A DNA stretch of 64,000 nt, from assembly GCF_900880625.1 (NCBI RefSeq), contig NZ_CAAHFB010000001.1:1240001-1304000 (forward strand), in the 5' to 3' direction. The DNA comes from Halorhabdus rudnickae (GTDB taxonomy: Archaea > Halobacteriota > Halobacteria > Halobacteriales > Haloarculaceae). The translations under genes were made by a program, and so were the position numbers. How positions within the stretch are numbered: position 1 is the first letter of the stretch; every line of letters starts with the position of its first letter. This document shows positions 1,161 to 62,007 of this stretch, piece by piece. Under the pieces are notes generated by a model that had not been told where the DNA came from, searched no databases, and saw only the letters and a list, made by a program, of their open reading frames with translations.

Positions 1161-2735
1161 TCAGCGCTCACCTTTTTGAAGCGCGTCGGCGGCTGGCTCG
1201 TCTGTCATCGGGGGGCCAGAGCCGGTCATCATGAGTCCGAGTTCCTCTTCGGTGACCGTCGACGGGTCGACCACGTCGACGAATTCGCCTTCGTACATCA
1301 CGGCGATCCGGTCGGCCAGTTTCTGGATCTCGTCGAGCTTCGAGGAGGCGAGTATCACGGCCATTCCCTGATCGCGCATCTCGATCAAGCGATTGTGGAT
1401 AAACTCGATCGAACCGATATCGACCCCGTGGGTCGGGTTCATCGCGACGATCACGTCCGGATCGTGTTCGATCTCGCGACCGACGATGAACTTCTGCTGG
1501 TTGCCGCCCGAAAGCGACTCTGCGCTGGTGTCTGGATCGTTGGGCTGGATGTCGTACGTGTCGAGGATCGAGTCCGTGTGATCCCTGACGGCCTGCCAGT
1601 CGAGAAAGCCGTTTTCGGTGAACGAATCGATCGTCTGGTTGCCGAGCAACGCATTGCGAACCAGCGAGTAATCCATGACCAGTCCTTCGGCCACCCGATC
1701 TTCGGGGATGTACGTGATGCCCAACTCGATACGTTCACGACGATCCGTGCCGGTGATGTCCTCGCCATCGAACGTGATCGTGCCTTCGGTCGCAGGTCGC
1801 AAGCCAGTGAGTGCCTCGACGAATTCCGACTGGCCGTTACCCTGGACGCCAGCCACGCCAAGGATCTCGCCCTTTCGGACTGAAAAATTGACCCCCTTCA
1901 CCTGTTCGAGGCCGCGATCACCCTGGGCGTGCAGGTCCTCGACCGCGAAGACGTCCGCACCCGGTTCCGTCTCTCTGTCGTCTGTCTCGAAAAGGACGTC
2001 TCGGCCGACCATCATCCGAGCGAGTTCCTGGCGGGACGTCTCTTCGGCCTCAACCGTTCCGACAGCCTGGCCGTCACGCAACACGGTAATTTCGTCGGCC
2101 GCGCGCATCGCTTCGTTGAGTTTGTGCGTGATGAAGATCAACGAACGCCCTCGCGCGGAGAGTTCCTGCATCACGTCGAGCAAGGTTTCGACCTCCTGGG
2201 GCGTGAGCACGGCCGTCGGTTCGTCAAGCACCAGGATGTCAGCCTCTCGATAGAGGCTTTTGACGATTTCGACGCGCTGACGAACCCCAAGATCGAGTTC
2301 GCGAACCGGCGTGTCGAGGTATTGATCGACATCGAAACCATAATGTTCACAAATTTCTAACACGTCCTCCCTGGCGTCGTCCTGATCGACGAGACCGTTG
2401 TGGGTTGGTTCGTTGCCGAGTACAATGTTCTGGAGGACGGTCATCGGCTCGACGAGCTGGAAGTGCTGGTGGATCATGCCGACGCCTGCCTCGATCGCGT
2501 CCCGCGGTGAGTCAAAGGTGGTCGGCTCGCCGTTGATGATAACCTCACCGCTGTCCCGTTCGTAAAGCCCGTACAAAATACTCATCAGCGTTGTCTTGCC
2601 GGACCCGTTCTCGCCAAGCAAGGCGTGGACAGACCCTTCCTCGAGTGTGAAATCAACCTCGTCGTTGGCGACCACGTCGCCGAACCGCTTGGTGATCGCT
2701 CGCAGTTCTACGGCCGCAGTTCTATCTTGCGCCAT
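1161..2735 (-). CDS. ABC transporter ATP-binding protein, double-NBD nucleoside/sugar type
   Basis: 524 residues with two fused nucleotide-binding domains. The first has Walker A GENGSGKT at 41-48 and Walker B ILVLDEPT. The second has a degenerate P-loop (GVQGNGQSE, near 300) and a full signature motif LSGGNQQK. One canonical and one degenerate site is the usual pattern for RbsA/MglA/NupO-type ATPases that serve simple-sugar and nucleoside importers. It sits 33 bases after the binding-protein gene and 2 bases before the permease. It powers the importer from the cytoplasmic face of the membrane. Confidence 0.92.
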   Translation of the reverse strand: MAQDRTAAVELRAITKRFGDVVANDEVDFTLEEGSVHALLGENGSGKTTLMSILYGLYERDSGEVIINGEPTTFDSPRDAIEAGVGMIHQHFQLVEPMTVLQNIVLGNEPTHNGLVDQDDAREDVLEICEHYGFDVDQYLDTPVRELDLGVRQRVEIVKSLYREADILVLDEPTAVLTPQEVETLLDVMQELSARGRSLIFITHKLNEAMRAADEITVLRDGQAVGTVEAEETSRQELARMMVGRDVLFETDDRETEPGADVFAVEDLHAQGDRGLEQVKGVNFSVRKGEILGVAGVQGNGQSEFVEALTGLRPATEGTITFDGEDITGTDRRERIELGITYIPEDRVAEGLVMDYSLVRNALLGNQTIDSFTENGFLDWQAVRDHTDSILDTYDIQPNDPDTSAESLSGGNQQKFIVGREIEHDPDVIVAMNPTHGVDIGSIEFIHNRLIEMRDQGMAVILASSKLDEIQKLADRIAVMYEGEFVDVVDPSTVTEEELGLMMTGSGPPMTDEPAADALQKGER

Positions 2736-2768
2736 GGCTTGCTCTCGTGGAACTAAAACGGCGTTGCG

Positions 2769-3929
2769 TCAGTCCTGACAGCCAGCGGCAGTACACGGCA
2801 CGTTGATGTCTCCGTTGGCGATCGCCTGTCGTGCCTCTTCGAGGTTCTGGTCGACGACATCCGGGAGTTCAGAACCGATCGCCTGGCCCTTTACCAGTGC
2901 CACACCGTCTTCGGCGACACCGAGGACGTTGCGTCCGGAGACACTGTCGAAATCATCCTCGACAACAGCTTGGGCAACTTCTCGTGTCCCTTCATTGATG
3001 AATTTGACTGCCGACCCCATAATGACGTCCTGATACTCCGGTAACGTCTTCGACTGGTCGGCGTCGACGCCGATAGCGAATCGGCTGGCGCTCTGTGCAG
3101 CGGGGAAAACACCCTGGCCGGCGGCCGCCGCGGCCTGGTAGACAATGTCGGCACCGCTGTCGTACTGGGAACTGGCGATGTTGGTCGCCTTCTGGGTGTC
3201 CTGGTAGTTGCCAATGTATCCGACGCTAACGTCCGTTTCCTCGTTAACCCACCCGACACCGGCCTTGTAAGCGCGTTCGAACGCGTTGATCAGCGGGCCG
3301 TCGACGCCACCGACAAACCCGACCTGGGCACTGTCTGGATCGGTCGAATTACCTTCATAGGAAAAGTCTCGCGTCGTCATCGTCCCGGCCATCACGCCGG
3401 CAAGGAACGACATCTCGTGGTTCGCCCAGACGTATCCCGCGACGTTGGGCTGCTCGACGTGATCGTTGATAATCATCCACTGCTGGCCAGGGTATTCCTC
3501 GGCGTTCGTCTGGAGCGCAGGTTTGTGCTGATACCCGACGAGGACGATCACATCGTAACTGGGGTTCGTACTCGACGCCAGGTTCGACTGCACCGACTGG
3601 TAGTTCGACGGTGACGTCTCCTCAACCTGGTTGAGCGAGATGTCGTACTCTTCAGCGGCCGTCTCCAGGCCCTGGACGGCGAGAGTATTGAACGCCTGGT
3701 CTCCAAACCCGGCCGAGCTTGAGACGATAGCGATGTTCGTCGTCTCCCCACCGCCGCCACCGTCTCCACCTCCCGGCTCGGTCGTTGTGTCGCCCCCGCT
3801 ACAGCCAGCAAGGGTAAGAGCGCTCGCCATGGCCGCACCACCTTTGAGCACGGAACGACGGTCCAGAACCGTCGACGAATCCGTCACGGTGTGAGTCCTC
3901 GGTCCCATGTTGTCACTTTTCTGCGCCAT
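2769..3929 (-). CDS. BMP-family substrate-binding lipoprotein
   Basis: 386 residues. The N-terminus carries a twin-arginine motif (DRRSVLKGG, RR at 24-25) and a lipobox LAGC with the lipidated Cys at 43, followed by a Gly/Thr linker. This indicates Tat export and lipid anchoring, typical of haloarchaeal binding proteins. The mature part reads as a Bmp/PnrA-like periplasmic-binding fold (IAIVSSSAGFGDQAFN, then GFVGGVDGPLINAFERAYKAG), the family that binds purine nucleosides in bacteria. A second in-frame Met at residue 8 is an alternative start. It is the first gene of the operon and is preceded by an AT-rich leader. Nucleoside binding is inferred from the family. Confidence 0.9.
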   Translation of the reverse strand: MAQKSDNMGPRTHTVTDSSTVLDRRSVLKGGAAMASALTLAGCSGGDTTTEPGGGDGGGGGETTNIAIVSSSAGFGDQAFNTLAVQGLETAAEEYDISLNQVEETSPSNYQSVQSNLASSTNPSYDVIVLVGYQHKPALQTNAEEYPGQQWMIINDHVEQPNVAGYVWANHEMSFLAGVMAGTMTTRDFSYEGNSTDPDSAQVGFVGGVDGPLINAFERAYKAGVGWVNEETDVSVGYIGNYQDTQKATNIASSQYDSGADIVYQAAAAAGQGVFPAAQSASRFAIGVDADQSKTLPEYQDVIMGSAVKFINEGTREVAQAVVEDDFDSVSGRNVLGVAEDGVALVKGQAIGSELPDVVDQNLEEARQAIANGDINVPCTAAGCQD

Positions 3930-4210
3930 AATACATGATTAAAAATGGAAATAGATAAAGGTACTGATGAAGGCATTTTTCATCACATAGAAATGCGTGG
4001 TTCGACGGGCTGTCATCCGTGATTCCACATCCAGAAGTGAATTTGGTTTATGTGAAAGTAGGGAAAATTCTACTAGTAAATATTTTGAATCGAATAAGAA
4101 GAGTTCAGTTTTTGGTATGTAACGGTCCCAAAGAGCGGGTAAGGACACACAGGTCTCACCTGTGCCATCCAGACAAGCCAAAACTCAGGCAGAGCATCAA
4201 AGAGTGTAGA
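3930..4210 (-). promoter_or_regulatory. AT-rich promoter region of the BMP transporter operon
   Basis: This stretch lies upstream of the binding-protein gene and downstream of the isomerase gene that reads the same way. It is clearly AT-richer than its surroundings, especially next to the start codon (3930-3985) and at 4070-4110. No gene is recognisable. A separate operon promoter is the likely content; the exact BRE/TATA positions were not resolved. Confidence 0.45.
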
Positions 4211-5179
4211 TTATTCCCAGTAGACCTCACCGGGTGTGGTCGTGAATACGACTCGCTGGAGCACGTCGACAGCTTTCTCCAGACCCTCTCGACCAGACGT
4301 CAGGGAGTCCTCGTGTTCGATAGACATCACGTCGTCGTAGCCGACCATCCGTAGGGTAGAGACGATGTCCTTCCAGTGTTCCTCACCGTGGCCGTATCCG
4401 ATCGACCGGAAAATCCACGACCGGTTGACTTCATCGCTGTAGGTGGTCGTATCGAGAACCCCCTTCTCGCGGACATTCGCGTCGTAGATGTTGGTGTCCT
4501 TGGCGTGGAAATGATAGATTGCATCGGCCCCACCGAGCAGTCGGATCGCCTCAGTCGGGTCGATCCCTTGCCAGTAGAGGTGCGAGGGATCGAGATTCGC
4601 ACCGATCCGATCTGATGTCGCCTCGCGCAGTTCCAGCAGCCCCGTCGGTTCGTAAATGAACATGTTGGGATGCATCTCGATGGCAATGTCAACGCCATGG
4701 TCCTCGGCCAGGTGACCGATTTCGGCCCAGTATTCAGAGACGACTTCCCACTGATACTCCTCGGCCTCGGCGTGTTCGGTCGGCCACGGTGCTGTGATCC
4801 AATTAGGGACTTCGTCGTTGGGACCACCGGCCGGGAGTCCCGAGAAGCACGTTACCGTGTTCACGTCCAGTTGGTCAGCGAGCCGAATCGTTTCGCGAAG
4901 TTCCGTGTCCGCCCGCTCGGCCGTCTCCTCGTCGGGATGAACCGGATTGTTGTGGGTCGCCAACGCGCTGATAGACATGTCGTACTCCTCGAGCGTATCG
5001 AGCAATGCCGCCTGCTCGTCTGGGTCGTCGAGAACGGCACGTCGCTCGATGTGGGGTTGTCCCGGATGGCCACCGGTCCCTAATTCGACGGCGTCGACGC
5101 CGAGCGAATCCAGGTACGACAGCGTGCTTTCGAGTGACTCGTCTTTCAACGGAACGGTAAGTACGCCAATTTGCATCAC
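4211..5179 (-). CDS. Sugar phosphate isomerase/epimerase-like TIM-barrel protein
   Basis: 322 residues of the xylose-isomerase-like TIM-barrel (AP endonuclease 2) superfamily. Visible family marks are VDAVELGTGG near the N-terminus, DIAIEMHP in mid-protein, GANLDPSHLYWQG (metal ligands) and IYHFHAKD, ending with MSIEHEDS. These Glu/Asp/His positions normally bind a divalent metal for isomerisation or epimerisation of a sugar or polyol. It lies next to Gfo/Idh/MocA oxidoreductases, the usual partner in inositol-like or oxidised-sugar catabolism. The real substrate cannot be read from sequence. Confidence 0.85.
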   Translation of the reverse strand: MMQIGVLTVPLKDESLESTLSYLDSLGVDAVELGTGGHPGQPHIERRAVLDDPDEQAALLDTLEEYDMSISALATHNNPVHPDEETAERADTELRETIRLADQLDVNTVTCFSGLPAGGPNDEVPNWITAPWPTEHAEAEEYQWEVVSEYWAEIGHLAEDHGVDIAIEMHPNMFIYEPTGLLELREATSDRIGANLDPSHLYWQGIDPTEAIRLLGGADAIYHFHAKDTNIYDANVREKGVLDTTTYSDEVNRSWIFRSIGYGHGEEHWKDIVSTLRMVGYDDVMSIEHEDSLTSGREGLEKAVDVLQRVVFTTTPGEVYWE

Positions 5180-5430
5180 CAGTAAATTTCAAAATTTGGG
5201 GTTTTAAGTCTTGGGGCGGCCGAAACGGCGAAGACGGAGACATCCGTTCGTCATGCCCGACATCATTTATAAATATGCATTCAATCATGATTTACTGCCC
5301 GTGACGTGTCACCTCGATCAGGACGCACGGGACAGCTGATACTACTACCTGGCCCAACAATGGATTCTAGCCCCAGAAACGTCGAAAAAGAGTCTCTAAG
5401 TCCCCCCAGACAACATACGAGGTGCGGACT

Positions 5431-5440
5431 AAAAATATAA
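5431..5440 (+). promoter_or_regulatory. TATA-like box for the first Gfo/Idh gene
   Basis: The sequence aaaaatataa lies about 37 bases before the ATG at 5477, a good distance for an archaeal TATA box with a short leader. It sits in a 297-base gene-free stretch (5180-5476) that also serves the divergent isomerase gene. A short inverted pair, atgta...tacat, lies between box and start and could be a regulator site. Confidence 0.5.
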
Positions 5441-5476
5441 GAAACGACTATGTATGTTGAGTAACTACATCACGCT

Positions 5477-6688
5477 ATGGCTTCTGAAACGTTCGGCATT
5501 GGTTTCGTCAGTGCAGGGTTCATTACGAGTGAGGCTCACGTCCCAAGCCTCGAGTACATTCCCGACGCAGAAGTAGCCGCGATCCACGAATTGGATCGTA
5601 AACGCGCCGAGGACCTCGCCGAAGACAGTCGGGACCTGGGGGTTGGCAATCCGAACATCTACGGTGAGGACGAACTAGCCGAAATGGTCGCCGATACCGA
5701 CGTCGACGCCGTCTGGGTTACCAGTCCCAATTTCACGCGGAAAGACGTCGTCGAGGGAATCGTCGAGGCCGTCGAAGACGGGGCGACTCTCCAGGGCATC
5801 GCCATGGAGAAACCGATCGCGAGGAACGTCGACGAGGCCAACCGAATCCTCGAGCGCGTCGAAGACGCCGGGTTGCCCCACGCCTATCTGGAGAACTGGG
5901 TCCACGAACCTGCCATCGAAGACATGCGGGAACTCCTCTGGGAGCAAGGCCGCGACGCCGGGCGACCCTACATCGCACGCGCTCAGGCCGAGCACGGCGG
6001 GCCACACTCGGCGTGGTTCTGGAATGGGAAGCTACAGGGAGGGGGCGCGCTCACGGACATGCTGGTCCACGCGATGGGTGGCAACGACTACCTCTTGACC
6101 GATCCGGAGGGCAGCAAGCTCGAACCGGTGGCCGTCTCCGCAGACACAGAGACGTTGAAGTGGAGCCGCGAGGAATACGCAGCCCAACTCGAGGAAGAGT
6201 ACGGCGTCGACTACGAGGACTCCCCGGCCGACGACTACGCCCGGGTGACGATTCGCTACGAGGACGAAAAGGGCCGGCCAGTCATCTCGGAAGCGGCCGG
6301 CTCCTGGTGTTACGTCGGGTCGGGGGTCAGTCGAACCGTCGAACTGCTCGGCCCGGAATACTCCGGACAAGTCCGGACAGACGACGATTCCTCGAGCATC
6401 TTCCTCTCAGACGAGCTGTCGGGCGAGGGCTGGGCTGAGAAACAAACCGCCACGAGTGGGCGAATGCCGATCGACGCCGAAGTCGTCGTCAACAGCGGGT
6501 ACGTCGGTGAGAACCGAGACGCGATCGACGCGTTCCGTGACGGCGAGAACGGACGGTTCGACCTCGAGGACGGCTTGCGGATGATCGAATTGAGTATGGC
6601 CGCCTACAGGGCCGCAGAAGACGGCGAAGAAGTCGATCTCGCCACGGCCGATCTGGACGGGTATCGACCGCCGCCAGCCCGCGAATAG
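5477..6688 (+). CDS. Gfo/Idh/MocA family oxidoreductase
   Basis: 403 residues. The N-terminal Rossmann fold starts with IGFVSAGFITSEAH, a variant of the usual nucleotide-binding glycine loop. The family EKP motif is present (AMEKPIARN, near residue 113), where Lys is the catalytic proton relay. The C-terminal alpha/beta substrate domain follows. The family uses NAD(P) to oxidise or reduce sugars, inositols or their derivatives. It is divergent from the isomerase gene at 4211-5179 and close to a second Gfo/Idh gene on the other strand, so the group probably processes one imported sugar or cyclitol. Confidence 0.88.
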   Translation: MASETFGIGFVSAGFITSEAHVPSLEYIPDAEVAAIHELDRKRAEDLAEDSRDLGVGNPNIYGEDELAEMVADTDVDAVWVTSPNFTRKDVVEGIVEAVEDGATLQGIAMEKPIARNVDEANRILERVEDAGLPHAYLENWVHEPAIEDMRELLWEQGRDAGRPYIARAQAEHGGPHSAWFWNGKLQGGGALTDMLVHAMGGNDYLLTDPEGSKLEPVAVSADTETLKWSREEYAAQLEEEYGVDYEDSPADDYARVTIRYEDEKGRPVISEAAGSWCYVGSGVSRTVELLGPEYSGQVRTDDDSSSIFLSDELSGEGWAEKQTATSGRMPIDAEVVVNSGYVGENRDAIDAFRDGENGRFDLEDGLRMIELSMAAYRAAEDGEEVDLATADLDGYRPPPARE

Positions 6689-6718
6689 CGCCGTCCAGAA
6701 GCCGATTTTCGCTGCGAA

Positions 6719-7750
6719 CTACGCTACCAACTCGAGGCGCTCACCAGCCGCAGCACTCCGGCGAGCGGTCTCGACGATTCGGTGGGCCTCCCGACAGAAA
6801 ACTGGGTCGCACGGACCCTCGGGATCGTTGTCAGTCTCCAGCAGGTGGACGATGTACGCGACGAGATTCTCGTAGCGGTCGGCCAGTGGATCGGCCTCGA
6901 CGCCGTAGCCTTCTGGATCGTCTCGGGTCGTGACATACACGTCGTGACCGCTGACGCGCGTACTGATCGAACCCCCGGTCCCAACGAGTTCGTAACCCTT
7001 CGGCGGCGTGGGCTCGATCTCCCAGGGACTGGTCAACATCCGCCAGGTCGTCTGAAACGCACTCATACCCTCGTCGTAGCGTGCGATCGTGGAACTCTGG
7101 ACATCGACCGCCATGTCCGCAGGGACGTAGGTATCGCTTGTTACTGACTCGGGGAGTTCGCCGCCGCGGAACCACGTCGAGAACGTCGCGCCATAGCCAA
7201 GGTAGTCAAGCATCGACCCGCCGCCGTCCTCGGGATCGTAGAACCAACTTCCCTCGGGTGGTGCGCCCGCGTTGCCGCCGTAATACTGAACCTCGACAAC
7301 ATCGCCGATCGTACCCTCATCGACGAAGCGCTTGACCGTGTGGTTGACCGGATCCCAGGTCACGGGCCAGTTGACGACGAACAGTTCGTTCTCGACCGCA
7401 TCGAGCATGCGGTCGGCGTCGGCCAGCGAGACGGCCAGTGGCTTCTCGATGGCGAGAGCTTCGAGGTCGAATTCGGTGACGCGCTCGACGAAATCGGCGT
7501 GCAAGGAGTTGCGCGGACACCCGAGAACGACGTCGGGTGCCGTCTCTTCGAGACAGCGCTCGAGGTCATCGAAGACGGCTGCCTCGGGGATGTCGAGATC
7601 CGAGAGGGCCTGCTCGAGTGATCCGGTCGAGGTCGACGGATCCTCGTCACAAACACCCACAAGTTCTGTCTCCGGATGATCGCGAACCCACTCGAGATTG
7701 GTGTTCATGTGCATCTGATCGAAGTTCGCACCGACGACGCGATAGACCAT
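6719..7750 (-). CDS. Gfo/Idh/MocA family oxidoreductase, second copy
   Basis: 343 residues from the ATG at 7750 (MVYRVVGANFDQMHMN). The open frame runs upstream to 8092, but that extension is Ser/Arg-rich, unlike haloarchaeal protein, and contains the natural AT-rich promoter, so it was rejected. The nucleotide-binding start is atypical (VGANFDQMH), with VVLGCPRNSLH and the catalytic motif IEKPLAVS present. It shares little with the neighbouring Gfo/Idh protein, so the pair probably does different steps. It is convergent with that gene, 30 bases apart. Confidence 0.85.
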   Translation of the reverse strand: MVYRVVGANFDQMHMNTNLEWVRDHPETELVGVCDEDPSTSTGSLEQALSDLDIPEAAVFDDLERCLEETAPDVVLGCPRNSLHADFVERVTEFDLEALAIEKPLAVSLADADRMLDAVENELFVVNWPVTWDPVNHTVKRFVDEGTIGDVVEVQYYGGNAGAPPEGSWFYDPEDGGGSMLDYLGYGATFSTWFRGGELPESVTSDTYVPADMAVDVQSSTIARYDEGMSAFQTTWRMLTSPWEIEPTPPKGYELVGTGGSISTRVSGHDVYVTTRDDPEGYGVEADPLADRYENLVAYIVHLLETDNDPEGPCDPVFCREAHRIVETARRSAAAGERLELVA

Positions 7751-7883
7751 ACTCGATATATATTCGAAAACAATAATGAATGTTTCTAGGCAAGGAGTGA
7801 CCACCAGTGACTCGAAGGTCCCCTTAGCGCGGACGTACCTCCATTGGAACCGTAGGTGCCACCTGTTCCGGAAAGAAACTCGT

Positions 7884-8882
7884 TCACAGACCTTCGCGTT
7901 CGACGTGCTTGCTGAGCGCCGGTGGCTGATCCGGGTCAACCCCTCGATCTCTAGCCAGAACGAACGTGAGTCGCTGGATCGCTTTGAGCGTGTAGAGGAA
8001 CTGTGGGCGGCCGACTGGGATGGCAATCGACGCCTCGACGGCAAGGTCGGTGGTATCGGGATGGATAGCCACGACCCGCCCACCAGCGTCACGCAGTTCC
8101 TCGAGAAGAGGTTCGTAGTGATCGATCATCGTGGGATCGCTGAGGACCAACAGCACAGGATCGCCCGATACGTTCGCCATCGGCCCATGACTGATCTCCA
8201 TGGCCGGCATGGGCGTCGAGTGAAGCAATGGTCCTTCGCCGAACTTCCGAGCAGCTTCGCCGGCCAGCGCGTAGTCGATCCCTGTCCCGAGTGTATAGGC
8301 ATGGCTGGCGTCTCGGAACACGTCAACGGCTGTATCGAAGTCCCGATCCGCGATCGATCGACACGTCTCAGCCGACCACGTGGAGCCCAGATTTCCGTCG
8401 TCGGCTGCCTCGGTCAGCAGGATCGAGGCCACGACGGCGGCATCGACGGACTTGGTCGCGAGGATCGACTCCTCGGTCCCAGCTGGCGTGACGTAAGCGT
8501 GATCAGCGAGTTCCGAAAGCGCCGATCCCGCCGTGTTCGTGATCGCGACCGTCCGCGCGCCCGCTTCGACCGCCGCCTCGAACGCCTGGACGGTCTCAGT
8601 CGTCTCGCCCGACTGCGAGTAGGCGACAACGACCGTCTCCTTGTCGACTGCATACTCGCCGAAGTAGAACTCCGAGGCCGTGATAGCCTCGGCGTCGGTG
8701 CCTGCGTCGCGGAACCAGTGTGCTGCCATCGTACCCACCCAGGACGAAGAGCCACACCCCAGGAAGTAGTAGCGAGACGCCGGGGCAATCGCGTCGGCGA
8801 TCGTCGACAGCGCGGGTCGCTCATCGAACGTCGCTTCGATCGCGGCACAGCCGTCACGTATCTCCGTGTCAGTGACTGTCAT
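7884..8882 (-). CDS. SIS-domain sugar-phosphate isomerase/deaminase (AgaS/GlmS-isomerase like)
   Basis: 332 residues with two tandem SIS domains. The first contains YYFLGCGSSSWVGTMAA and SQSGETTETVQA, the sugar-phosphate-binding Ser/Thr loops. The second contains TLGTGIDYALAGEAARK and FGEGPLLHSTPMPAMEISHG, matching the isomerase half of GlmS and AgaS-type proteins. There is no glutaminase domain, so it should act as an aldose-ketose isomerase or amino-sugar-phosphate deaminase rather than as GlmS. It reads in the same direction as the second Gfo/Idh gene and lies just downstream of a decayed ROK kinase, suggesting an amino-sugar pathway. Confidence 0.88.
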   Translation of the reverse strand: MTVTDTEIRDGCAAIEATFDERPALSTIADAIAPASRYYFLGCGSSSWVGTMAAHWFRDAGTDAEAITASEFYFGEYAVDKETVVVAYSQSGETTETVQAFEAAVEAGARTVAITNTAGSALSELADHAYVTPAGTEESILATKSVDAAVVASILLTEAADDGNLGSTWSAETCRSIADRDFDTAVDVFRDASHAYTLGTGIDYALAGEAARKFGEGPLLHSTPMPAMEISHGPMANVSGDPVLLVLSDPTMIDHYEPLLEELRDAGGRVVAIHPDTTDLAVEASIAIPVGRPQFLYTLKAIQRLTFVLARDRGVDPDQPPALSKHVEREGL

Positions 8883-8954
8883 GACCTCATTTTGATCGGA
8901 AAATGATGATAGTAGCTGTCCGAACTAAACTCTTTCGAGAAGGAGATACCGATA

Positions 8955-9223
8955 TCAGGCGTGATACAGGTCGAGGTCAGCTACCGTCACAGACGCGATC
9001 GCACCTAACAACTCCAGATCGGCGCCCAGCGACGTAATCTCGACGCTCGGACGGGAGACGAAACGTAGTCATCGAGGTGCCGTTCGATCCCCCTAAGTAC
9101 GACCTCGGGATTGTTGAGAGCGACGCCGCCAAGTGTGACGACCCCAGGGTTGACGATGTTGATCATGCCCCCGAGTCCCGCCGCGTTGTACCGACCGATG
9201 CGTACGATAGCCGGTACCGGCAC
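8955..9223 (-). pseudogene. ROK-family sugar kinase, C-terminal remnant with frameshift
   Basis: The minus strand from 9223 encodes a stretch ending in AAGLGGMINIVNPGVVTLGG, the typical C-terminal segment of ROK kinases, followed by NNPEVVLRGIERHLDDYV. Near 9060 the frame shifts. The next frame continues with VSRPSVEITSLGADLELLG and a terminal LYHA before a stop at 8955, exactly how ROK proteins end. A stop codon sits just upstream of 9223 and the N-terminal ATPase half is absent. The remnant lies 72 bases before the SIS gene on the same strand, so it was once probably in the same operon. Confidence 0.8.
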
Positions 9224-59108: not shown

Positions 59109-59327
59109 CGACGCGACCAAGAATATATCACTGATGACGGCGTTTACATCAACCAGGTCGAGTGTCTCTGGTCACTGTTGAATCCGTGGCTGGCGAAATT
59201 CCGTGGTCTCTCCAAACCAGGATTGGAGTAGTCCGTCCGAACCTACGGGTTCGTCCGGACGCTCAACCTTGCTGGAGCACCGCTGCACGCGCTTGTTGAG
59301 TGCTTCGTCGTCAACGTGTTTCGCTAA
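59109..59327 (+). pseudogene. Transposase C-terminal remnant, IS1595-like, with in-frame stop
   Basis: From 59109 the plus frame reads RRDQEYITDDGVYINQVECL and then [20 protein letters not shown], followed by TAG at 59229-59231, and then in frame [20 protein letters not shown] ... FVVNVFR and a stop at 59325. The pattern of DDE-type IS1595 transposase C-termini (acidic Glu before LWSLL, then a Gly-rich turn) is clear. The N-terminal two thirds and both element ends are missing. Confidence 0.75.
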
Positions 59328-59344: not shown

Positions 59345-59356
59345 GATTTTATTATG
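59345..59356 (+). promoter_or_regulatory. TATA-like box for the transducer fusion gene
   Basis: gattttattatg lies about 25-30 bases before ATG 59377, which places the transcript start at or next to the start codon. It begins 18 bases after the transposase remnant, so the remnant may have brought or created the promoter. Confidence 0.5.
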
Positions 59357-59376: not shown

Positions 59377-62007
59377 ATGAAACAACTACTCGGTTTGCTG
59401 GCGGGAAACTTCAAAGATGAGCCGGGTACTACAGATGGATCAGAGATGACTGATGGGGATATAGAGATGGGAAAGACACCCTCATCAAACTTTGAAAGCG
59501 GTGGCAATGAGATTGTGACGGAAAGTGTTGAGTCGTTCGATTTAGATGGGCTGTCCAAGACGGAGGTACGAGCGGTCATCACAGAGTTGCATAATGAGCG
59601 TAATATTGCTCAGGAGCGTGTCCGCAATCTGGAGGACCGTGTTGAGGGGTTGGAGGCTGAATTGCGAGAGAAGGACCAGCGGCTTCACGACTATGAGGGT
59701 TCAGTGAATGAGTTACAGGGCGTTGTCACGGCAAATGCCGACGGTGATCTGACTCGGCGTGCTGAGATAGATTCTGATATCGACACGATTACCGACTTTG
59801 TTGCCACCTACAATGAGATGATAAAGCGGTGGAATGAGATTGCTCAGCAGTTGAAAACGGCCAGCCAGACTGTGACGGATGCGACAAAGACTGTTGAGGA
59901 CGAAATCCATGCTGTCAGCGACAAAAGCGAAGAAATCGACACATCGGTCGATGATATCGCGCGTGGTGCTGAAGAGCAGAGTGACAAGTTGGGAGAGGTG
60001 CTTGATGAGTTGGAAAGCTTATCAGCGACGATCGAAGAGGTGGCTGCATCGACAGATGAGATAGCAACGAACGCAAGCGAGACGATTGAGCGGGGTGATT
60101 CAGCACAGCGGGCAGCAAGTGACGCGCTTGCTGTGTTGGAGTCTATGGAGTCCCAGACAGATGATCTGGTGACAGAAATTGAGGGTTTGAATGAATTGAT
60201 GGGTGGGATTGAGGAGGTAATGGAGTTCATCACAGATATTGCTGAGGAGACGAATATGCTTGCGCTCAATGCGAATATCGAGGCCGCCCGTGCCGATCAA
60301 AGTGGTGATGGGTTTGCTGTCGTAGCGGACGAGATTAAGTCTCTGGCAACGGAGACGAAAGAAGCGACCGATGATATTGCAGGCTCAATCGAAGAGGTGA
60401 ACGAGCAGACACAAACAGCTGTTGAGAAGATGCATTCGACGGAGGATGCAGTTGACGACACGCGGGAGGTAGTGCAAACCGCGATTACGGAGTTGGACGA
60501 GGTTGTCGAGATGTCAACCGAGGCGAGTCAAAGTATTCAGGAGACCAGTGAGGCGATTGATCAACAGGCTTCGACAACGCAGGAAGTCGTTGCAATGGTG
60601 GACGATGTGAGTGCGGGGAGCGAAGAAACGAGTGCTGCTGCACAGACTGCGGCTGAAGCGACGGAGACTCAAACGAAATCGATCACAGATATCGTCACGG
60701 AAGTTGAAACGCTAACGGCTGAGGCAGACGGTCTTGAGGGTGCCAGTGAGCAGTTTGAGACTGGCGAACGCGTGAAGCGAGTTGTTTCGAAGACGGATAC
60801 AGAGGTTGACTTCTGGCACGCGATGGGTGGGCAGAAAGCGTTGATACTGACGGATCTCGTTCGTGAGTTTGAACAAGAGTATGGTGGAGTGCATTTCAAC
60901 CTCTCATCGATGGGGAGCTATGATGGGACTCTGACAGAAGCACTGGCGGCTGCAGAAGAAGGAGATGCGCCAGCAATCACACAGGTTAACGAGATCAGCA
61001 CTCTGAAAGCCTATGAGAGCGGGGCGTTCAAGCCGGCGGGTGAGTTGTTGCCAGCACAGACACAACACTCTCTCGTTGATTCGGTCCAGGAGTACTATAC
61101 GATTGAGGGAACACTCCAGTCTGTACCGTTCAACTCCTCAAACCCGATTTTGGTGATCAACAAAGAGCTGTTTACTCAAGCCAGGTTGGATCCAGAGAAC
61201 CCACCAGAGACGTTGAGCGAGGTCAAACGTGCGAGTGAACAGCTTGTCTCACAAGGCGTCGCAGAATTCGGGATCACATTTGCGAACTACTCGTGGTTTG
61301 TTGAGCAGTGGTTTGCTGAGGACAGTCAACAACTAGTCGATGCAGAGAATGGTCGCACTGGAACGCCGAACGAGGCGTACATAGATAGTAAGACGGGCAG
61401 AGAGTTGTTTGATTGGTGGGTGACGATGGAGCATGATGGGTTATATCAAAATCCTGGCGTCAAAGCCCGTGGCACGGCGAAAAAAGAGTTCCATGATGAA
61501 CGAGTAGCTATGTTGATCGGGTCAACGTCGTCTCTCAATTCGATTGTCAGGCGTGCCGATTTTGCTGTTGAAACGGCACCGCTTCCAGTCTTGAATGAAC
61601 GAAATGGAGTAGTTGTTGGTGGGGCTTCGTTGTGGGTTGGTGATGGACTTGCGAATGAAACTGAGTCGGTGGTGCGTGCATTCTTCGACTGGCTGTTGGA
61701 GCCTGAGCAACAGGCCCAGTGGCATCAGGAGACTGGCTACTTCCCGGTCACAACAGATGCAATCAGGCAGTTACAGACGTCAGGTTGGTTTGAAGAAAAC
61801 CCCCACTTCGTGACTGCATTCACTCAGCTTCAAGATACGATCGATAGTGCAGCAACGAATGGAGCACTCATTCAGTCGTTCCCAGAGGTGCGCTCACTCA
61901 TCGAAGAGTATCGCGCTGAGATGGCAACGCCAGCAACCGTTTCACGACAGCTCCAAGAGTTGAATAGCGAAATTGAAACACGTCTTGGATATCAAACCGA
62001 TCGTTGA
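59377..62007 (+). CDS. Cytoplasmic chemotaxis transducer fused to a C-terminal solute-binding protein
   Basis: 876 residues from ATG 59377 ([17 protein letters not shown]). Upstream codons of the frame belong to the transposase remnant. No signal peptide or membrane segment. Residues about 58-115 are coiled coil, about 113-155 HAMP-like ([20 protein letters not shown]), about 160-465 the MCP signalling hairpin with tip [20 protein letters not shown] and [19 protein letters not shown]. From residue 479 ([13 protein letters not shown]) to the end is a UgpB/MalE-type solute-binding protein ([53 protein letters not shown]). Codon use and low GC differ from neighbours. A cytoplasmic solute sensor is inferred. 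Confidence 0.88.

Follow-up and report, generated by a model that had tools for sequence, protein, structure and literature searches.

A family of haloarchaeal chemoreceptors fused to UgpB-like binding domains: candidate cytoplasmic receptors for glycerol 3-phosphate

Introduction

What could a solute-binding domain report on when it is joined to a chemoreceptor inside the cell? This question was raised by a gene in a 64,000-nucleotide stretch of the Halorhabdus rudnickae genome (hereafter the window). The gene (positions 59377–62007, + strand) encodes a protein of 876 aa, in which an MCP signalling hairpin is followed by a UgpB-type solute-binding domain.

Solute-binding proteins supply the specificity of the transducers in the BasB/BasT and CosB/CosT systems. 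These consist of a binding lipoprotein and a transmembrane transducer, two separate proteins that sense outside the cell, whereas the protein studied here is fused and cytoplasmic. Car, the arginine transducer of Halobacterium, resembles the fusion in being soluble, cytoplasmic and without a membrane segment, and is thought to sense intracellular metabolite levels; to our knowledge, Car-type soluble chemoreceptors carry no solute-binding-protein domain. TlpD is a cytoplasmic chemoreceptor that also has its sensor behind the hairpin, but this sensor is a C-terminal CZB domain with another fold.

SBP_bac is one of the sensor types listed in a 2022 census of the chemoreceptors of archaea, and the pairing of MCP and SBP domains had therefore at least been counted (PMC9680633). 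The same part of the census recognises a "cytoplasmic C" class of C-terminal cytoplasmic sensors, which like the fusion place the sensor behind the signalling hairpin, and it counts SBP_bac without describing a ligand, a family or a gene context (PMC9680633). A search of the open-licence literature found no paper that describes the fusion family, identifies its sensor as UgpB-like, or reports a ligand or a linkage to glp genes. A first-pass annotation of the locus, made from sequence alone, knew of no described family of this architecture; the literature search agrees as to the family, but SBP_bac sensors as such had been counted in the census (PMC9680633).

Features of the fused gene

The region 59377–62007 (+) was a single uninterrupted frame of 876 codons, in which M1, M24 or M31 could serve as the start. 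Pfam analysis of the whole protein showed MCPsignal at residues 246–412 (E 2e-35), SBP_bac_8 at residues 494–811 (E 1e-35) and SBP_bac_1 at residues 491–780. The PF00015 score was 122.5 bits against a curated cut-off of 34.6, which places the protein among the MCPs. The frame and these matches bear out the initial description of a transducer and a complete solute-binding protein in one polypeptide.

AlphaFold modelling of the full-length protein, with 43 fused relatives as input, showed an unstructured N-terminus of 60 residues followed by a coiled coil and MCP signalling hairpin at residues 61–462 (59557–60762, +). Helices were predicted in this half at residues 61–121 (the coil), 136–190, 205–306, 311–407 and 415–462. 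The MCPsignal core (residues 246–412; 60112–60612, +) contained a hairpin-tip motif of 15 residues (not shown). A short flexible linker (residues 463–473; 60763–60795, +), with low pLDDT around it at residues 456–469, led to the binding domain (residues 474–876; 60796–62004, +), which was complete in sequence and predicted fold and was folded from residue 475 in the full-length model. Modelled alone, the binding domain had a mean pLDDT of 93.9. The two folded modules anticipated by the first-pass annotation were both clear in the full-length model, and their relative placement was uncertain (pTM 0.52); docking of the modules is therefore not claimed.

The highest 19-residue hydropathy mean in the window protein was 0.77, so the protein has no membrane or signal segment. 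This includes the region between the domains and agrees with the cytoplasmic location first proposed. In the fused relatives the same mean was at most 1.33, which assigns them to the soluble chemoreceptors. The HAMP domain that had been placed in the hairpin half was not supported by Pfam: HAMP was absent among the Pfam families matched by the whole protein at E<=0.1, and among the best 25 Pfam families matched by residues 1–467 at E<=5. The TATA-like box reported in the junction was found as TTTTATT (59347–59353, +), about 30 bases 5' of the ATG; it was recognised by resemblance to the consensus, and its spacing would fit a leaderless transcript.

Relationship of the binding domain to UgpB

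Searches of the solved structures with phmmer matched the binding domain to E. coli UgpB at E 6e-45, and the top sequence matches were UgpB of E. coli (4AQ4, 6X84) and of Phaeobacter (9LFF). The same entries were the top fold matches to the predicted domain, with TM-scores of 0.84–0.90, and UgpB structures occupied the first four places among 1068 matches at E<=0.001. A glycerophosphocholine (GPC)-binding UgpB of M. tuberculosis and a dinucleotide-binding protein were also near in fold. Identity to UgpB (4AQ4; 9LFF) in the structural alignment was 28–29 percent, and the likeness extended over the whole domain.

The best NCBIfam model for the domain was UgpB (E 1e-55). The score of 188.8 bits did not reach the equivalog cut-off of 411 bits, and the domain is therefore called UgpB-like and not UgpB itself. 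It also differs in its setting: UgpB works outside the cytoplasm and delivers its ligand to an ABC importer, whereas the fused domain has no signal sequence, is cytoplasmic and forms part of a chemoreceptor.

Of the original label "UgpB/MalE-type", the UgpB part is retained and the generic MalE-type part is dropped, as sequence, fold and pocket all pointed to UgpB. A generic sugar sensor of the MalE type was accordingly considered less likely.

Conservation of the ligand pocket

The contacts of UgpB with glycerol phosphates have been described in Phaeobacter numbering (PMC12718374, 2025). The phosphate is held by Tyr64, Ser143, Ser266 and Tyr342, the hydroxyls are contacted by Glu88, Gly303 and Arg393, and Trp188 and Trp191 form a clamp (PMC12718374). 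In the window protein the phosphate contacts corresponded to Tyr515 (codon 60919–60921, +), Ser588 (61138–61140, +), Ser716 (61522–61524, +) and Tyr788 (61738–61740, +). The hydroxyl contacts corresponded to Glu539 (60991–60993, +), Gly749 (61621–61623, +) and Arg839 (61891–61893, +), and Trp191 of the clamp to Trp640 (61294–61296, +). The fused domain thus shares every hydrogen-bonding residue of the UgpB pocket and, of the clamp, the second tryptophan.

Alignment of 43 fusions showed that all eight of these tested positions (seven hydrogen-bonding residues and Trp191) were invariant, as against 74 of 378 columns (20 percent) in the binding domain overall; for columns drawn at random, the probability of this result is 1.6e-6. 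The two-tryptophan clamp was not conserved. The position of Trp188, the first clamp tryptophan, was held by Asn637 in the window protein (61285–61287, +), and by Asn in 38 and Thr in 5 of the 43 fusions. Loss of this tryptophan could widen the ligand specificity.

Exported haloarchaeal homologues had the same pocket and likewise lacked the first clamp tryptophan. Its absence is therefore a trait of the lineage and not decay after fusion, and conservation of the pocket alone is no proof of a sensory role.

Distribution of the fusion in haloarchaea

A scan of GTDB contigs gave 54 loci with relatives of the binding domain, and in 40 named loci a single frame encoded both halves, the MCP half always first. 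The fusion was found in Haloarcula, Halomicrobium, Halomicroarcula, Halorubrum, Halonotius, Halohasta, Haloferax and Halobiforma, and in several metagenome bins; the search for the same fusion elsewhere thus revealed a widespread haloarchaeal family and not a peculiarity of the window genome. In an even sample of the class, at least 66 of 392 genomes had a binding-domain match in a frame at least 780 residues long, a count based on the match and on frame length.

In the phylogenetic tree, the fused domains formed one side of a branch with support 93/93, beside exported haloarchaeal UgpB proteins, a placement that would fit a single fusion event in haloarchaea. The exported UgpB-like lipoproteins (e.g., at loci L078, L089 and L091) are a sister clade whose pocket also has no first tryptophan; they differ in being unfused and in bearing twin-arginine/lipobox N-termini, signals that the fused forms do not have. 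The distances of the MCP half and of the SBP half correlated (rho 0.64, reached in 0 of 2000 permutations), and both halves have a common history. The MCP half of the window protein was closer to other fusions (up to 52 percent) than to the receptors of its own genome (up to 40 percent).

A virus-borne gene was rejected, as a pattern-limited scan of viral contigs gave no relative. A plasmid-borne fusion was rejected as well; the binding proteins in plasmid records were all unfused. Plasmids of Halobacterium salinarum carry unfused UgpB-like proteins, and close relatives occur on Thermus plasmids (plasmid records NC_002608.1 and NC_017588.1).

Gene neighbourhood of the fusion

Genes of glycerol catabolism were recurrent neighbours. 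At 17 of the 40 named loci, glpA and/or glpK adjoined the fusion or lay within about 5 kb of it; at the other 23, and at the window's copy, glp genes were not adjacent. Neighbours other than glp were seen in Halorubrum, in Haloferax and in the subclade to which the window copy belongs. The window itself lacks the glycerol-gene context, which the first-pass annotation therefore could not see.

Two arrangements were seen. In Haloarcula, Halomicrobium and two metagenome bins, glpC-glpB-glpA was divergent from fusion-glpK-membrane protein-Cdc6-like ATPase, and glpK began about 130–315 bases 3' of the fusion. In Halonotius and Halohasta, glpB-glpA was divergent from glpK-membrane protein-Cdc6-like-fusion-HPr. 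GlpA, GlpB, GlpC and HPr of these loci scored above or near the NCBIfam cut-offs. For a genome of 3 Mb, a random gene is estimated to lie within 8 kb of a glp cluster in about 0.5 percent of cases, and the linkage would clearly exceed chance even if it counted as no more than two independent arrangements; the individual loci are not independent.

Several other genes of these loci were noted. For the membrane protein beside glpK, an independent study predicted a role as glycerol transporter of a new family (PMC3102087). The membrane-protein-like gene adjacent to glpK at these loci (L051:10889-11962 and homologues; L098:5651-6814 in the window's own genome) had no Pfam or NCBIfam match. A Cdc6/Orc1-like AAA+ ATPase was encoded 3' of glpK (L050:12077-13249 and homologues) at 15 glp-linked loci in several genera; it scored below the family cut-off and may regulate the glycerol genes instead of serving in replication. 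In Halonotius and Halohasta, a PTS HPr gene followed the fusion, with a phosphoglycolate-phosphatase-like HAD gene nearby. Both genes were found downstream of the fusion at L055, L056, L058, L059, L064, L065, L068 and L069, and may point to a connection with PTS-dependent dihydroxyacetone metabolism. The metagenome scaffold L056 also contained a 2402-codon frame (2001-9206) that starts as GlpK and ends as the fusion; only its first part matched GlpK, and it is probably a frameshift or assembly error and not a giant fusion.

Putative function as a receptor for intracellular glycerol 3-phosphate

A UgpB-like domain with a conserved glycerol-phosphate pocket allows the likely ligand to be named. 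We consider it probable, at about 0.68, that the fusion is a cytoplasmic chemoreceptor for intracellular sn-glycerol 3-phosphate (G3P), which would give metabolism-dependent glycerol taxis. Sequence analysis shows the fusion, the fold, the intact pocket, the lack of export, the conservation and the glp linkage in relatives; we infer from these which ligand binds, what closure does and that the response is attraction.

In the proposed mechanism, glycerol would enter the cell and be phosphorylated by glycerol kinase, and the resulting G3P would close the C-terminal UgpB-like domain. The arms of an MCP hairpin are antiparallel, which brings the end of the C-terminal arm next to the N-terminal input coil. 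Because of this geometry, a domain hanging by a linker of about 10 residues from the C-terminal arm, beside the input coil, would be well placed to change the packing of the bundle. Closure would alter this packing, then CheA activity and finally switching of the archaellum, and the cell would steer by glycerol actually taken up and phosphorylated. The antiparallel arms also make the earlier statement that a sensor behind the hairpin inverts the usual order an overstatement. C-terminal cytoplasmic sensors of archaea, moreover, are already catalogued in the census (PMC9680633).

Haloferax volcanii needs glycerol kinase to grow on glycerol (PMC12366361). Most G3P in these cells is expected to come from the phosphorylation of imported glycerol, so a cytoplasmic UgpB domain would report successful glycerol uptake. 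Archaeal lipids use glycerol 1-phosphate (G1P), and if the reading is right G3P would reflect glycerol catabolism almost exclusively. It would also mean metabolism-dependent taxis with a named ligand, mediated by a solute-binding protein at work in the cytoplasm. In hypersaline waters, much-used carbon is supplied by the glycerol that leaks from Dunaliella, a substrate preferred by haloarchaea such as Haloferax volcanii (PMC12366361), and no glycerol receptor for haloarchaea was found in a search of open-licence papers. The fusion family is a candidate for such a receptor, with a predicted ligand and a predicted requirement for glycerol kinase; in it, a textbook extracytoplasmic binding domain, placed behind the signalling hairpin, would sense a metabolite in the cytoplasm. 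We lean slightly towards the broader evolutionary proposal that a transport binding protein was internalised once in haloarchaeal evolution and became a sensor for G3P, often encoded in the cluster that makes it.

The sensor might instead read G1P or a glycerophosphodiester from lipid turnover, and so report the status of the membrane lipids and not glycerol catabolism. Phaeobacter UgpB binds G3P with a Kd of 0.8 uM and G1P with a Kd of 2.4 uM in the same pocket (PMC12718374), and G1P, the archaeal lipid backbone, may compete with G3P in the same compartment. One clamp tryptophan is missing from every fusion, the GPC-binding UgpB and the dinucleotide-binding protein are close in fold, and many fusion genes lie away from glp genes. 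However, the recurrent function-related linkage, in two separate arrangements, was to genes that make or use G3P, and no lipid-synthesis gene was recurrent among the identified neighbourhood clusters. We regard the lipid reading as unlikely, if the strongest of the competitors.

More doubtful is an output other than motility, for instance regulation of the glp genes or signalling through a different Che-like pathway. It would suit those genera that encode the fusion inside a glp cluster with the possibly regulatory Cdc6-like ATPase. However, CheW was present in 66 of 66 fusion-bearing genomes of the class sample, against 323 of 392 overall, as expected for a taxis receptor; kinship among the genomes weakens this count and that of the glp linkage. 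The genome of the window also encodes archaellins, CheW domains and a 775-aa frame containing one of these domains, which is probably CheA, and thus a Che pathway and a motility organelle.

Slightly less credible still, the binding domain could be a stable appendage, binding nothing or a partner such as GlpK, with sensing left to the N-terminal coil. In its favour, the coil is predicted to be helical behind 60 unstructured residues, but a mere appendage would hardly keep all eight tested pocket positions invariant when 20 percent of the domain's columns are, nor 876 codons open after the probable transfer of the gene.

Origin of the window copy

The gene of the window's copy is AT-rich. Its GC content was 0.513 and its GC3 0.53, compared with a GC content of 0.607 in the rest of the window and a GC3 of 0.71–0.98 in sister genes. 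Upstream lay the C-terminal remnant of a transposase (59133–59324, +; 64 residues with one in-frame TAG), which had no Pfam match and was assigned to the IS1595 family by blast against annotated plasmids. No relative of the binding domain was found in six congeners at E<=1e-20. The first-pass annotation had described an AT-rich gene behind a transposase remnant and proposed recent transfer. Low GC3, the IS1595 remnant and the absence from the congeners agree with it: the window copy was probably acquired by transfer, likely from an AT-rich source.

That the copy is an artefact, a joining of two neighbouring genes by sequencing or assembly, is suggested by its position beside the transposon remnant but is refuted by its relatives: many assemblies made independently, one of them a complete chromosome, together contain 40 named loci with the same order and a similar junction, and at least 66 of the 392 sampled genomes have frames of fusion length.

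The host genome encodes glpK and glpABC. It can thus make and use G3P, and as it also has archaellins, CheW and a probable CheA, a receptor arriving by transfer could function there immediately. In this genome, glpK and glpA were divergent and 219 bases apart with nothing between them, and this gap is the exact place of the fusion in Haloarcula; the six congeners keep the glpK-glpA pair. Three genomes with a window-type fusion elsewhere (L108-L110) had a glpK/glpA gap of about 0.9–1.2 kb, in which no MCP or SBP similarity was found and which is possibly the scar of a lost receptor gene.
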